NCBI GenBank assembly: GCA_947627425.1
Contig: CANQVZ010000007.1
Span: 1-64,000 of the forward strand
Length of the DNA stretch: 64,000 nt
Source: an uncultured Clostridia bacterium
GTDB lineage: Bacteria; Bacillota; Clostridia; Lachnospirales; CAG-274
Reading direction: 5' to 3'
A model generated the notes under the pieces. That model saw nothing but the letters and a program-made list of their open reading frames with translations, was not told where the DNA came from and made no database searches. The translations under genes and the position numbers were made by a program. Positions 60,089 through 64,000 of this stretch are shown piece by piece (positions within the stretch are counted from its first letter, which is position 1; each line of letters starts with the position of its first letter).

Positions 60089-62449
60089 CTACACAAGCCC
60101 TATAAGCGAGCCTATGAGCCTGACCGCAAAGGCGGCAAGCCAAGCCACGGTGCACTGGAGCACGACCACTACAAGCGCGCCCCTCCTGCCCATCTCCCGC
60201 CTTACGGCGCCCACGGCGGCAACGCAGGGGGTATAAAGCAGAGTAAACACCAAAAACACAATGGCGGTAAAGGGCGTGAAGAAAGCGGAGAGAGCGGAAA
60301 CATTGCCGCCTATGAGCACCGTAAGAGTGCTGACAACGCTTTCCTTAGCCGTAAAGCCCGTTATAAGCGCCGTGGATATCCTCCAGTCTCCGAAGCCAAG
60401 AGGCTTGAATATGGGCGCAACTATACTGCCCAAAAGCGCAAGAAGGCTCTGCGAGGAATCCGAAACTATGTTGAGCCTTGTGTCAAAGGACTGCAAGAAC
60501 CATATTATGATGGTGGCAAGGAATATTATTGTAAACGCCTTCGTTATGAAGTCCCTTGCCTTTTCCCACATTAGCCTGCCGACATTTTTAATGCCGGGCA
60601 GTCTGTAATTGGGAAGCTCCATAACAAAGGGTACGGGGTTGCCCCTAAATGCCGTCACCTTCATGAAAAGCGCAAAAAGCACGCCCGTGACTATTCCCGT
60701 TATGTACATTGCTATCATTATAAGCGCTCTGTATTTTGGGAAGAACGCCGCCGTAAAAAAGGCGTAAATGGGGAGCTTTGCCGAACAGCTCATAAAGGGC
60801 GTAAGCATTATGGTCATCTTTCTGTCACGCTCGGACGAGAGCGTCCTTGCCGACATTATGGCAGGCACGGAGCAGCCGAAGCCTATAAGCATGGGCACAA
60901 AGCTCCTGCCCGAAAGACCTATCTTTCGCAGAATGCTGTCCATAACAAAGGCTACCCTTGCCATATATCCGCTGTCCTCCAATATGGAGAGGAAGAAGAA
61001 AAGCACCACGATGACGGGCAAAAAGCTCAGCACACTGCCCACTCCCGCAAATATACCGTCTATCACAAGGGAATGTATGACGGGATTTATGCCGTATGCC
61101 GTAAGTCCCATATCGCAAATATCGGTGACCTTTTCTATGCCCAGCTCCATTATATCCGACAGGAAAGAACCTATCAAGCCGAAGGTCAGCCAAAAAACAA
61201 CGCCCATTATCACTATAAAGGCGGGTATGGCTGTAAATCTTCCCGTGAGTATTCTGTCAAAGGCTGCGCTCCTCTTGTGCTCTATGCTCTCCTTGGGCTT
61301 AACGACTGTGCGCTCGCAAAGCTCCTCTATAAAGCCAAAGCGCATATCCGCAATGGCGGACATTCTGTCGCGTCCGCCCTCCTCCTCCATCTGCACGATC
61401 ATGTGTTCAAGGGTCTCCTCCTCGTTCTTGTCCAGATGAAGCGCATCAAGTATGAGGCTGTCGCCCTCCACAAGCTTTGCCGCGGCAAAGCGCAGAGGTA
61501 TGTCATAGAGCTTTGAATGGTCCTCTATAAGGTGGCTGACGGCGTGTATGCATCTGTGGAGCGCTCCGCTGTCGCTGCCCTGAGGGTCGCAGAAATCCAG
61601 CCTGCCGGGGCGCTCGCCAAAGCGCGTGACATGGAGAGCATGGCTTATAAGCTCGTCTATACCCTCGTTCTTTGAGGCTGAAATGGGTATAACGGGTATG
61701 CCCAAGGACGCCTCCATAGCGTTTATGTTTATGGTCCCGCCGTTTTGCCTTACCTCGTCCATCATATTGAGCGCAAGCACCATTGGCACATTAAGCTCTA
61801 TGAGCTGCATTGTAAGATAGAGATTTCTCTCTATGTTTGTGGCGTCCAATATATTGATTATGCCGTCGGGCTTTTCCTTCAATATAAATTCTCTTGTGAG
61901 TATTTCCTCGCTCGTATAGGGAGAGAGGGAATAAATGCCGGGAAGGTCTGTCACAACGGCGTCGCTGTGACCTCTTATGGTGCCGTCCTTCCTGTCAACG
62001 GTCACGCCCGGAAAGTTGCCCACGTGCTGATTGGCGCCCGTGAGCTGATTGAAAAGCGTTGTCTTTCCGCAGTTCTGATTGCCCACAAGGGCAAAGCTTA
62101 TGGTCCTGCCCTCGGGTATGGTATAGCCCGATTTTTTGGGGCGGTATCTGCTCTCGCCCACTCCGGGGTGCTTTATCTTCTCGGCAGGGCGGGATATGCG
62201 CCTGTATTCGTGCATATCGTGTATGTTTTTAAGCGTTATGTTGGCTGCGTCCGCCTTTCTCAGGGTAAGCTCATAGCCCCTTACTCTCAGCTCCATAGGG
62301 TCGCCCATGGGCGCGCACTTCACAAAAGTGACCTCCGTGCCGGGAGTAAGTCCCATATCCAGAATATGCTGTCTTAAAGCCGGCTCGGCGCAATTCACCT
62401 CGTCTATAACGGCGTCCTTGCCTATTTCAAGCCTGTCAAGAGTCATCAT
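60089..62449 (-). CDS. feoB: Ferrous iron transporter FeoB with fused FeoA domain
   Basis: A 786-residue membrane protein. Residues 1-78 are a FeoA/SH3-like domain (LTPGTEVTFVKCAPMGDPME), fused to FeoB. The GTPase follows: G1 GNQNCGKTTLFN, switch FPGVTVDRKDG, G3 DLPGIYSLSPY, G4 ALNMMDEV. The membrane part has two Gate repeats, including GFGCSVPAIMSARTLSSERD with the conserved Cys. It imports Fe(II). The start overlaps the ArsC/Spx-like gene (4 nt), and no separate feoA is present. Confidence 0.95.
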   Translation of the reverse strand: MMTLDRLEIGKDAVIDEVNCAEPALRQHILDMGLTPGTEVTFVKCAPMGDPMELRVRGYELTLRKADAANITLKNIHDMHEYRRISRPAEKIKHPGVGESRYRPKKSGYTIPEGRTISFALVGNQNCGKTTLFNQLTGANQHVGNFPGVTVDRKDGTIRGHSDAVVTDLPGIYSLSPYTSEEILTREFILKEKPDGIINILDATNIERNLYLTMQLIELNVPMVLALNMMDEVRQNGGTININAMEASLGIPVIPISASKNEGIDELISHALHVTRFGERPGRLDFCDPQGSDSGALHRCIHAVSHLIEDHSKLYDIPLRFAAAKLVEGDSLILDALHLDKNEEETLEHMIVQMEEEGGRDRMSAIADMRFGFIEELCERTVVKPKESIEHKRSAAFDRILTGRFTAIPAFIVIMGVVFWLTFGLIGSFLSDIMELGIEKVTDICDMGLTAYGINPVIHSLVIDGIFAGVGSVLSFLPVIVVLFFFLSILEDSGYMARVAFVMDSILRKIGLSGRSFVPMLIGFGCSVPAIMSARTLSSERDRKMTIMLTPFMSCSAKLPIYAFFTAAFFPKYRALIMIAMYITGIVTGVLFALFMKVTAFRGNPVPFVMELPNYRLPGIKNVGRLMWEKARDFITKAFTIIFLATIIIWFLQSFDTRLNIVSDSSQSLLALLGSIVAPIFKPLGFGDWRISTALITGFTAKESVVSTLTVLIGGNVSALSAFFTPFTAIVFLVFTLLYTPCVAAVGAVRREMGRRGALVVVVLQCTVAWLAAFAVRLIGSLIGLV

Positions 62450-62796
62450 TTGTTAAGCACTTCCTCCCACTGCTTTTCTCTGAAGCCCGTGAGCACAAAG
62501 TCATCACCCACGAGCACGGGACGCTTAACGAGCATACCGTCGCTTGCAAGCACGGCTATAGCCTCATCCTCGCTCATGGCGGGCAGCTTATCCTTAAGTC
62601 CCAGCTCTCTGTACTTCATACCGCTTGTGTTGAAAAGCTTTTTAAGCTCCACGCCCTTTTCAAGCCAAAGCTTTATTTCCTCCGCCGTGGGATTGTCCTC
62701 TACAATGTGCCTGTCCTCAAATGAAATTCCCCTGTCCATGAGCCACTTTTTTGCCTTCTGACAGGTGCTGCACTTCGGATATTCGATAAATAACAT
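62446..62796 (-). CDS. ArsC/Spx-family thioredoxin-fold protein
   Basis: A 116-residue protein of the ArsC/Spx/YffB family. The redox site is YPKCSTCQKAKKWL with Cys at 10 and 13. The family's arginine-rich anion site is only partly seen (LVKRPVLVG and FREKQWEEV). It could be an arsenate-reductase-like enzyme or an Spx-type regulator; the sequence does not decide. It is the first gene of the operon with feoB, so a role in iron or thiol stress response is suggested by context. Confidence 0.87.
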   Translation of the reverse strand: MLFIEYPKCSTCQKAKKWLMDRGISFEDRHIVEDNPTAEEIKLWLEKGVELKKLFNTSGMKYRELGLKDKLPAMSEDEAIAVLASDGMLVKRPVLVGDDFVLTGFREKQWEEVLNK

Positions 62797-62923: not shown

Positions 62924-62952
62924 TTGCTTTTGTTTATGTATTATGCTATAAT
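62924..62952 (+). promoter_or_regulatory. Sigma-A promoter of the 40-codon ORF
   Basis: TTGCTT and TATAAT with a 17-nt spacer, about 140 nt upstream of the start codon, giving a long structured leader with hairpins GGC-GAAA-GCC (62966-62975) and CCTAT-GAG-ATAGG (63044-63056). Confidence 0.7.
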
Positions 62953-63093
62953 AGGTTTAGGGATAGGCGAAAGCCTTGATCTCACAAAGGGAAATGATAT
63001 AGCGGTTGTTCCTCACTTTTACATAATTCTTGGGGATATGATGCCTATGAGATAGGATAAATGTTTTTGGGATTTTATGAAGGGAGGTAAAAT

Positions 63094-63216
63094 ATGACAA
63101 ATGAAAGATTATTTAAAGCTGATATTATTCTTGCTATTATGTCAGAATATATTGGTATTGATATTTCTGATAATGCTCATATTACAATAGCCGCTTTCAG
63201 TCCTTCCAAAAACTAA
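63094..63216 (+). CDS. 40-residue peptide, candidate type I toxin
   Basis: Well-formed small gene: strong AGGGAGG 6 nt before the ATG and an upstream promoter. The peptide is moderately hydrophobic and acidic, with FKADIILAIMSEYIGIDI and AHITIAAFSPSKN. It uses ATT for seven of its eight isoleucines, unlike most surrounding genes, which favour ATA, so it may be acquired. The last codons and stop lie in a perfect 10-bp hairpin (63186-63195 with 63219-63228). Leader positions 63005-63014 are exactly complementary to 63250-63259 downstream of the stop, allowing the mRNA to fold back. I do not recognise the peptide. Confidence 0.55.
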   Translation: MTNERLFKADIILAIMSEYIGIDISDNAHITIAAFSPSKN

Positions 63217-63278
63217 ATAGCGGCTATTAATAATAAATGCTTTTTATTTGAGGAACAACTGTGTTGTTTCTCTTTGTG
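63180..63278 (-). ncRNA. Predicted antisense RNA to the 40-codon ORF
   Basis: Inferred from a consensus promoter at 63284-63312 pointing into the end of the ORF. The RNA would begin near 63278 and first contain the GAGAAACAAC / GTTGTTCCTC hairpin (63272-63250), complementary to the 3' region of the sense RNA. I could not find a clear terminator, so the far end is uncertain. Confidence 0.35.
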
Positions 63279-63283
63279 TTTAT

Positions 63284-63312
63284 ATGATAACATATTTTTT
63301 ACTATATGTCAA
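63284..63312 (-). promoter_or_regulatory. Sigma-A promoter of the predicted antisense RNA
   Basis: TTGACA and TATCAT with a 17-nt spacer on the minus strand, with no minus-strand ORF downstream. Confidence 0.65.
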
Positions 63313-63326
63313 GTGATAATAGATAG

Positions 63327-63353
63327 CGGGCTGAGGAAACCTCAGCCCGTTTT
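63327..63353 (+). terminator. Terminator, right copy of the hairpin repeat
   Basis: Perfect 10-bp stem CGGGCTGAGG / CCTCAGCCCG followed by TTTTAATTT on plus. Confidence 0.75.
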
Positions 63354-63362
63354 AATTTATCA

Positions 63363-63521
63363 TCAGCTCTTAAGATTATGAAGCTTAAATGATTCACCAC
63401 TTATGCCATTGCCCTTATTATAAGTAGCAACAGCCATTGATGTAACAAGTGTAAGATTATTTGTAGCATCCATAGCATTATAGCAAGTAACTATCATGCA
63501 GGGCTTTTCATATATTCTCAT
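63363..63521 (-). CDS. 52-residue peptide gene, function unknown
   Basis: ATG with AGGAGG 9 nt upstream; 52 codons and a TGA stop. The peptide starts MRIYEKPCMIVTCYNAMDA, then a Thr/Ala-rich middle and a basic tail. It has two Cys near the N-terminus and no obvious membrane segment. It lies 19 nt after the stop of the larger gene at 63541, on the same strand, with similar GCT/ACT/AAT-rich codon use, so the two are probably an operon. A short secreted or modified peptide is possible, but no processing enzyme is visible. Confidence 0.55.
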   Translation of the reverse strand: MRIYEKPCMIVTCYNAMDATNNLTLVTSMAVATYNKGNGISGESFKLHNLKS

Positions 63522-63540: not shown

Positions 63541-64000
63541 CTAATTTGTCTTTGTTGAAAGTACCTTTACATTGTTCTCTTTGCCTCCGGTCTTTTCAAT
63601 TTTTGAATATACCTTCGGAGAGTCAGCGCTTGTGTACTGTACCCAAGGCACAAGCACTACAGCTGTATCAGGCTTAAGAGCATAGAACGTCTGGCAGAAT
63701 ATGCTGTCATTACTTACTTTGTTCAATTCTCCTACACCATTTGTTATAGTGGACCCTTCGGGTTTTTCCGTACCAAAATCTATTGCAGAGTTTACAATAT
63801 CGGAGAATGTTATTGTTTCCTTTATTGTTGCTTCAACTCCTTCTGCTGTAGTAGCTCCAGCATAATAATGATAAGTTATAGAAGCCTTATCTGCCGTGTC
63901 ATAATCGTCCTTCTCATATACATCATAGCCTACGGCATAAATATCCGAAAGAGCAGCCCTTATCTGAGCCTCTGTAGTGCCCTTTACATCTATCTTACCT
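63541..64000 (-). CDS. C-terminal part of a protein of unknown function (5' end outside window)
   Basis: The frame is open from the right edge to a TAG at 63541, giving 152 residues. Sequences include GKIDVKGTTEAQIRAALSDI, DKASITYHYYAGATTAEGVE and SDIVNSAIDFGTEKPEGSTI. Thr, Ala, Lys and Tyr are frequent and one Cys is seen, a composition like secreted or surface proteins, though no anchor motif or membrane helix is at this end. An internal TTG at 63726 could be mistaken for a start, but the open frame continues upstream. I do not recognise a domain. Confidence 0.65.
   Translation of the reverse strand, partial: GKIDVKGTTEAQIRAALSDIYAVGYDVYEKDDYDTADKASITYHYYAGATTAEGVEATIKETITFSDIVNSAIDFGTEKPEGSTITNGVGELNKVSNDSIFCQTFYALKPDTAVVLVPWVQYTSADSPKVYSKIEKTGGKENNVKVLSTKTN

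Follow-up and report, generated by a model that had tools for sequence, protein, structure and literature searches.

Organization of the locus and coding frame

The window, a stretch of 64,000 nucleotides from an uncultured Clostridia bacterium, carries in its last part a compact locus in which two promoters face each other around a short peptide gene. Its features are listed below, with the RNA ends of both strands predicted from sequence features.

62924..62952, plus strand: sense (toxin) promoter, with TTGCTT, 17 nt and the extended -10 TGCTATAAT
62958..62983, plus strand: 5' end of the toxin mRNA (predicted start site) and leader hairpin P1 (AGGGATAGGCGAAAGCCTTGATCTC)
62984..63014, plus strand: leader arm of the long-distance pairing, AGCGGTT overlapping GTTGTTCCTC
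63044..63056, plus strand: small leader hairpin CCTATGAGATAGG, recognisable as GnTGCCTATGATTTAG in other genera
63080..63087, plus strand: Shine-Dalgarno (SD) site AAGGGAGG, with the toxin ATG 13 nt downstream
63094..63216, plus strand: 40-codon ORF of the preliminary description, in an overlapping frame and probably not a selected protein
63101..63190, plus strand: putative toxin gene MKDYLKLILFLLLCQNILVLIFLIMLILQ, 29 amino acids with a single hydrophobic segment, homologues in seven genomes
63180..63277, minus strand: predicted antisense (antitoxin) RNA of ~95 nt, ends placed from promoter and terminator hairpin
63186..63228, minus strand: hairpin 2, directly after the toxin stop, likely antisense terminator with a variable loop
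63229..63249, no strand assigned: linker separating hairpin 2 from hairpin 1, of hypervariable sequence (mean identity 41%) and a candidate for setting specificity
63250..63281, plus strand: hairpin 1 with TTTGTGTTT, which likely terminate the mRNA and supply the 3' arm for pairing with the leader
63284..63312, minus strand: antisense promoter, with TTGACA, 17 nt and TGTTATCAT
63325..63351, no strand assigned: bidirectional terminator-like hairpin common to the neighbouring minus-strand gene, outside the repeat

The preliminary description had placed two facing promoters with 17-nt spacers here; their coordinates are confirmed, and both recur among the copies of the locus described below. On the plus strand, TTGCTT (62924-62929) is followed by TATAAT (62947-62952). 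This promoter is absent from the listing of a promoter scan because its -35 box matches the consensus at only three of six positions; the -10 box is extended (TGCTATAAT), and TTGnnn-17-TGnTATAAT is present again in the aligned copies inspected. On the minus strand, TTGACA (63312-63307) and TATCAT (63289-63284), with TG, agree with the consensus at 11 of 12 positions. TTGACA is invariant in 16/16 aligned antisense sequences, in which the -10 box is TATCAT or TATTAT, and the loci outside this alignment have near matches.

The ribosome site lies where it had been put, and the structured sense RNA is borne out by structure prediction: the transcript 62957-63355 folds at -129.8 kcal/mol, with z of -9 against dinucleotide shuffles. 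Leader hairpin P1 has 95% mean pairwise identity among copies, with 99.4% of its alignment cells paired. In all subtypes of the locus the order is sense promoter, leader, SD site, toxin, hairpin 2, linker, hairpin 1 and minus-strand antisense promoter. Hairpin 2 always begins at the toxin stop codon; the window copy has a weak version (TATTGTAATA) of the minus-orientation U-run that follows it in most copies, and most others have a better one (TTATTTTAATA). The location of hairpin 1 is likewise constant, and plus-strand TTTGTGTTT directly follows it in most copies.

The preliminary description took a 40-codon ORF as the coding frame and pointed to its ATT-rich codons. The ORF is present; the conserved frame, however, is a 29-codon one, offset by seven bases with its start downstream. 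Translation of all copies in the genus gives a hydrophobic peptide with a common last codon and always 29 codons from MK[KDE][YF]L. Parsimony changes among 18 distinct copies fall on codon positions 1, 2 and 3 of this frame as 26/10/48 (chi-square p = 2e-6), and the Nei-Gojobori means are dN 0.18 and dS 1.13, a dN/dS of about 0.16. The 40-codon frame has dN 0.35 above dS 0.23, a ratio confounded by the frame overlap, and its C-terminus varies between copies. Position 2 of the hydrophobic frame, which would be the free third position of the 40-codon frame, is nevertheless the most constrained. Codon positions, dN/dS and the variable C-terminus rule out the 40-residue product as the toxin, and by these sequence comparisons the 29-codon frame is the conserved one and the longer ORF its shadow. 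The ATT-rich, T-ending codons of the shadow ORF are genuine, and arise because the adjacent Leu/Ile-rich frame consists of NTN codons, which also leave few stops; an out-of-frame shadow of this kind is able to mask a leucine-rich toxin gene.

The objection that the peptide is not a typical membrane toxin, raised earlier as the weak point, falls away since the putative toxin is hydrophobic and read in the other frame. The locus thus holds a short hydrophobic peptide gene under protein-level selection, as expected of a type I toxin-antitoxin system. We also note that the shadow ATG, at 6 nt from the SD site, is better spaced than the toxin ATG, whose 13 nt are wider than usual and span the out-of-frame ATG, a point against the mechanism proposed below. 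The genus conserves the shadow ATG, which the divergent loci inspected from other genera lack; its retention in the genus may reflect use as a decoy start or pairing of AUAUG with CAUAU near the toxin end.

Toxin variants include MKNYLKLILLLLLVQNILALSIYLIYLLK, MENYLKLILLLMLIQNILALLIYIIK, MNGFYKFLLVLILITIILALIAYIIK and MDDYYKFLLVLIIILDLLVVIAYIIK, as well as the 20-residue MTETQITLLLLLLIIIYIKK. Searches of Pfam, NCBIfam, PADLOC and PHROGs, of low sensitivity for very short peptides, give no match for the genus toxins, and the divergent toxins have only sub-threshold, chance-level Pfam matches. Similarity to TxpA/BsrG, Fst/Ldr or other catalogued families was not detected, within the sensitivity that peptides of this size permit.

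Dispersed copies and long-distance pairing

A DNA search matches 18 pieces each in the genome of the window and in G001, and 13 in G006, all three genomes being of the same genus. The repeated unit begins at the sense -10 (~62941) and ends at the antisense -35 (63314), and the flanks outside it differ between copies. About 10 dispersed copies are present in the own genome and 8-10 in two sister genomes, and in three further genera of this family divergent copies occur singly or in small numbers; these numbers are lower bounds, since contigs often end inside copies, as repeats in short-read assemblies should. In the own genome, a toxin frame of the window's subtype is present in seven copies (contigs 7, 3, 61, 17, 14, 63 and 45); contig 34 has a copy fragment at its end, and contig 1 carries two tandem copies of a short-leader subtype (~129770-130440). 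Divergent loci were recognised by leader model and toxin alignments in G031 and G025 (one genus), G023 and G026, and G003 retains only a degraded antisense hairpin. The genomes compared are draft assemblies, mostly metagenome-derived, and the loci, being related copies, do not count as independent tests.

Among 84,980 species genomes scanned for the leader pattern, only uncultured Clostridia MAGs match, and viral contigs give no leader-pattern match. A phage or plasmid origin is rejected for the sets searched, in which neither phages nor plasmids match at the DNA level and plasmids do not match at the peptide level. Order- and class-wide toxin searches return only weak isolated matches outside the family, and those inspected lie without such a locus; this absence is weak evidence because searches with 20-29-residue peptides have low sensitivity. 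Rfam gives no match at gathering scores and only chance-level ones below, and a tRNA scan is empty.

The exact 10-nt complementarity reported earlier between leader and 3' end is confirmed: GTTGTTCCTC (63005-63014) is the reverse complement of GAGGAACAAC (63250-63259). RNAalifold applied to 18 mRNAs pairs leader columns 27-61 with 3' columns 304-332. In this structure 96.4% of cells are paired, and a slide of the partner by one column lowers the value to <50%. Cells changed on both sides number 30 as against 13.0 +/- 2.9 in shuffles, none of 500 shuffles being as high, although the main change, UA to CG, divides the copies in two groups and independent events are therefore fewer than the cell counts. 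The best independent evidence comes from another genus. In locus L061 of G031 the leader (GGGAATAAC...TATCCTGCTT) and the 3' end (AAGCGGGATA...GTTATTCCC) are wholly different in sequence and the pairing is retained. Cognate leader/3' duplexes in 26 loci of seven genomes have energies of -30 to -50 kcal/mol (z -3.2 to -10.3).

The leader contains a second such element, AGCGGTT, GACGGTT or GGCGGTT. In most loci it complements the sequence behind the toxin stop and changes in step with this partner (AGCGGTT/AACCGCT, GACGGTT/AACCGTC, GGCGGTT/AACCGCC); rows L028 and L031 of this comparison are uninformative, a wrong small ORF having been taken as reference. Perfect matches have lengths of 5 to 8 nt; a few copies, among them the window copy, require a G-U pair. 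With AGCGGTT complementary to the post-stop sequence and GTTGTTCCTC to the mRNA 3' end, the leader arm 62984..63014 resembles the 5' region of the antisense RNA, and the leader is in this respect antitoxin-like.

Every complete locus possesses an antisense promoter TTGACA-17-TATNAT, a post-stop antisense terminator hairpin and the leader/3'-end pairing. Homologous loci lacking antisense promoter and complementarity, which the preliminary description named as grounds against its reading, were looked for and not found. At the level of genes, an antisense gene with its own conserved promoter and terminator-like hairpin overlaps the toxin mRNA, as in type I systems, and conservation across >25 loci supports an antisense RNA overlapping the sense 3' end. 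This bears on whether the unit could be a non-coding dispersed repeat of MITE-like type with incidental ORFs and promoters. Such a repeat would likewise be multicopy, short and strongly structured, and some copies do lie at rearranged sites; the codon-position pattern (26/10/48, p = 2e-6) already disfavours it, as do promoters conserved on both strands and an architecture that persists where DNA similarity is lost, and we find it hardly credible.

Mean pairwise identity is 76% for the toxin ORF, 69% for the hairpin 2 loop and 41% for the linker. Loop and linker could set cognate specificity or be simply unconstrained; the data do not separate the two. A second antisense unit without a toxin occurs in L021, L022, L023 and L042. 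For this unit, L022 and L023 show a clear promoter and L021 a plausible one (TTGACT-17-TATTAT); the assignment in L042 is the least certain of the four. The unit in L022 is similar to the antisense gene of L035 (G006), with an upstream flank common to both, as would result from replacement of a toxin with retention of its antitoxin. The toxin-less genes may be cross-protecting antitoxins.

These genes also weigh on the reading of the peptide as a small membrane protein that is regulatory rather than toxic and is under cis-antisense RNA control. Sequence cannot reveal toxicity, and the peptides, at 20-29 aa, are very short and have no long charged tail such as is found in many Gram-positive type I toxins. 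Nevertheless, many redundant dispersed copies fit an addictive or toxic product better, and the same holds for IS insertions and the degraded remnant, for toxin-less antisense genes and for the tight translational control predicted at every copy. We regard a purely regulatory role as improbable.

Accessibility of the Shine-Dalgarno site and proposed mechanism

The effect of the pairing on the ribosome site was assessed by thermodynamic folding, which ignores kinetics and proteins. CCTC within GTTGTTCCTC is predicted to double as an anti-SD clamp: the leader CCUC pairs with GGAGG of the SD site in the absence of the 3' end and with the 3' GAGG when that end is present. The mean cost of opening the SD site is 4.3 kcal/mol in the full-length mRNA, 8.7 without hairpin 1, 7.0 without both hairpins and 7.7 in the nascent form. 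The native 3' end reduces the cost in 25/25 loci (mean 4.35 vs 8.64 kcal/mol with shuffled ends), and 4/350 shuffled ends reach the native value. Removal of the antisense overlap raises the mean from 4.3 to 7.0 kcal/mol over the loci, whereas the window copy responds weakly (3.5 to 4.4, a gain of only 0.9 kcal/mol); its SD site is partly freed in the full-length fold, with a mean unpaired fraction of 0.34, and still often paired.

The fold-back that the preliminary description took as inhibitory is accordingly conserved, and its inhibitory role is doubtful, given the predicted freeing of the SD site in 25/25 loci. We lean slightly towards a fold-back that frees the site, with the antisense RNA re-clamping it. 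In a type I module of the hok/Sok or AapA/IsoA kind, end-to-end pairing would instead be the inert, protected state, in which full-length pairing hides the SD site and 3' trimming activates. The topology is indeed that of aapA3, with 5'-3' long-distance pairing, here supported by covariation, and CU-rich anti-SD elements (PMC6733600), and end-to-end pairing also hides part of the antisense target. Removal of hairpin 1, however, raises the mean SD opening cost from 4.3 to 8.7 kcal/mol, and the thermodynamic prediction is opposite to hiding by pairing and exposure by 3' loss in 25/25 loci. Because of these opening costs an activating 3' end with a re-clamping antitoxin is favoured over an inert end-to-end state, which is considered unlikely.

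The mechanism proposed for the activating 3' end builds on anatomy, coding frame, conservation, covariation and predicted energetics as direct results, and presumes transcription, repression, RNase III involvement, antisense instability and a toxic peptide. The plus strand would yield an mRNA of ~325 nt encoding a 29-residue membrane peptide, presumably toxic, and the minus strand an antisense RNA of ~95 nt over the 3' UTR, reaching from the mRNA end back to just past the toxin stop. As long as the mRNA is nascent or its 3' end unavailable, leader CCUC/CUUUU would pair with the SD site and block initiation. Once made, the free 3' end would engage this leader segment in ~30 base pairs and so open the ribosome site in part, the translatable form being full-length mRNA not bound by antisense RNA. 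The leader-like antisense RNA would compete for the 3' end, restore the clamp and offer a duplex to RNase III, and loss of this short-lived RNA would allow stored mRNA to be translated. Cleavage of the mRNA/antisense duplex by RNase III is likely in addition; such cleavage is known for TxpA/RatA and BsrG/SR4.

Like BsrG/SR4 of Bacillus subtilis, the locus has convergent genes, an antisense overlap at the 3' end only and a small hydrophobic toxin. Binding of SR4 at the bsrG 3' end, far from the SD site, extends the SD stem from 4 to 8 nt (PMC4147584); a similar strengthening of SD sequestration is predicted here on average over the loci, though weakly for the window copy, and by this analogy the antisense RNA over the 3' end should restore the clamp. 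This is in contrast to BsrG/SR4 in other respects: the toxin has 29 rather than 38 aa and no similarity detected in family searches, the leader resembles the antitoxin and would compete with it for the 3' end, and the copies are dispersed in the chromosome with no phage match. TxpA/RatA is also convergent, with a ~75 nt 3' overlap that spares the translation start (PMC4147584); TxpA, however, has 59 aa, RatA acts mainly via mRNA decay, and no sequence relation was found. Clostridioides difficile modules (CD2517.1-RCd8 and others) share the Clostridia host, the convergent arrangement and the presence of several related modules per genome, and type I modules of that species show antitoxin specificity (PMC6563280). 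Their toxins of 34-59 aa have charged C-terminal regions and many are prophage linked, whereas those described here have 20-29 aa, carry one or two charged residues at their ends and match no phage or plasmid.

The window locus is very probably a type I toxin-antitoxin module, as first described, and its conservation across >25 loci points the same way. That it represents a new multicopy chromosomal type I family with an activating 3' end and antitoxin re-clamping, taken whole, we consider rather likely. The family appears new as an uncatalogued toxin paired with antisense RNA, set apart by sequence searches of limited sensitivity. More tentatively, and with some doubt, an inverted end-to-end logic can be envisaged: the leader, an antitoxin mimic, clamps the SD site, the finished 3' end releases it and the antitoxin removes that end, while toxin-less antisense genes with altered loops cross-protect and the hypervariable loop and linker keep ~10 modules per cell distinct. 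The family would add uncatalogued type I toxins down to 20 residues, in multicopy, to uncultured gut Clostridia, where few type I systems are characterised. Its covariation over 26 loci in seven genomes offers a ready test of a 3'-pairing antitoxin that silences a distant ribosome site, and its copy number a test of how many near-identical modules avoid cross-talk.

Flanks, insertions and neighbouring genes

On the left, the flank matches two sister genomes as far as 62890, beyond which the sequences diverge; a clean empty site in these genomes is rejected, since more than the module differs there. The hairpin GGGCTGAGG...CCTCAGCCC lies outside the repeat unit and is also present at other module-free sites of the genome.

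An insert, ATTGAATCGGAAAGATTTATCCGA...AGTTCTGAT, at the antisense 5' end is rejected as part of the antitoxin, being present also in module-free intergenic DNA of G003 (L142, L146); it is better read as a MITE-like insertion. It is short and hairpin-rich, and lies repeatedly between hairpin 1 and the antisense -10, with a preference for that spot (L023 near 1985-2060, L028, L043, L047, L051, L120 and L129), and in one case (L070) within a leader. IS-end-like sequences (TGTACTGACCCCAAAAAGTTAGACAAA; ATGAACCCCGTTTGTTAGACAAAA) break the hairpin 2 loop in L026, L041 and L048 (3' ends) and in L027, L050 and L051, usually at contig ends.

To the left of the module (60089-62796, minus strand) lie genes for a FeoA-FeoB-fusion-like protein (786 aa) and an ArsC/Spx-like protein (116 aa), their translations judged by eye. 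A gene for a 52-aa peptide (MRIYEKPCMIVTCYNAMDATNNLTL...), without family match, lies tail-to-tail with the module at 63363-63521 on the minus strand, and its relatives adjoin other copies on contigs 61 and 63 of the own genome and contigs 53, 83 and 93 of G006. Upstream of it (63541-64000, minus strand; 2542-6552 in L135) is a gene for a 1336-aa protein, which by its signal-like N-terminus is probably secreted or surface-attached.
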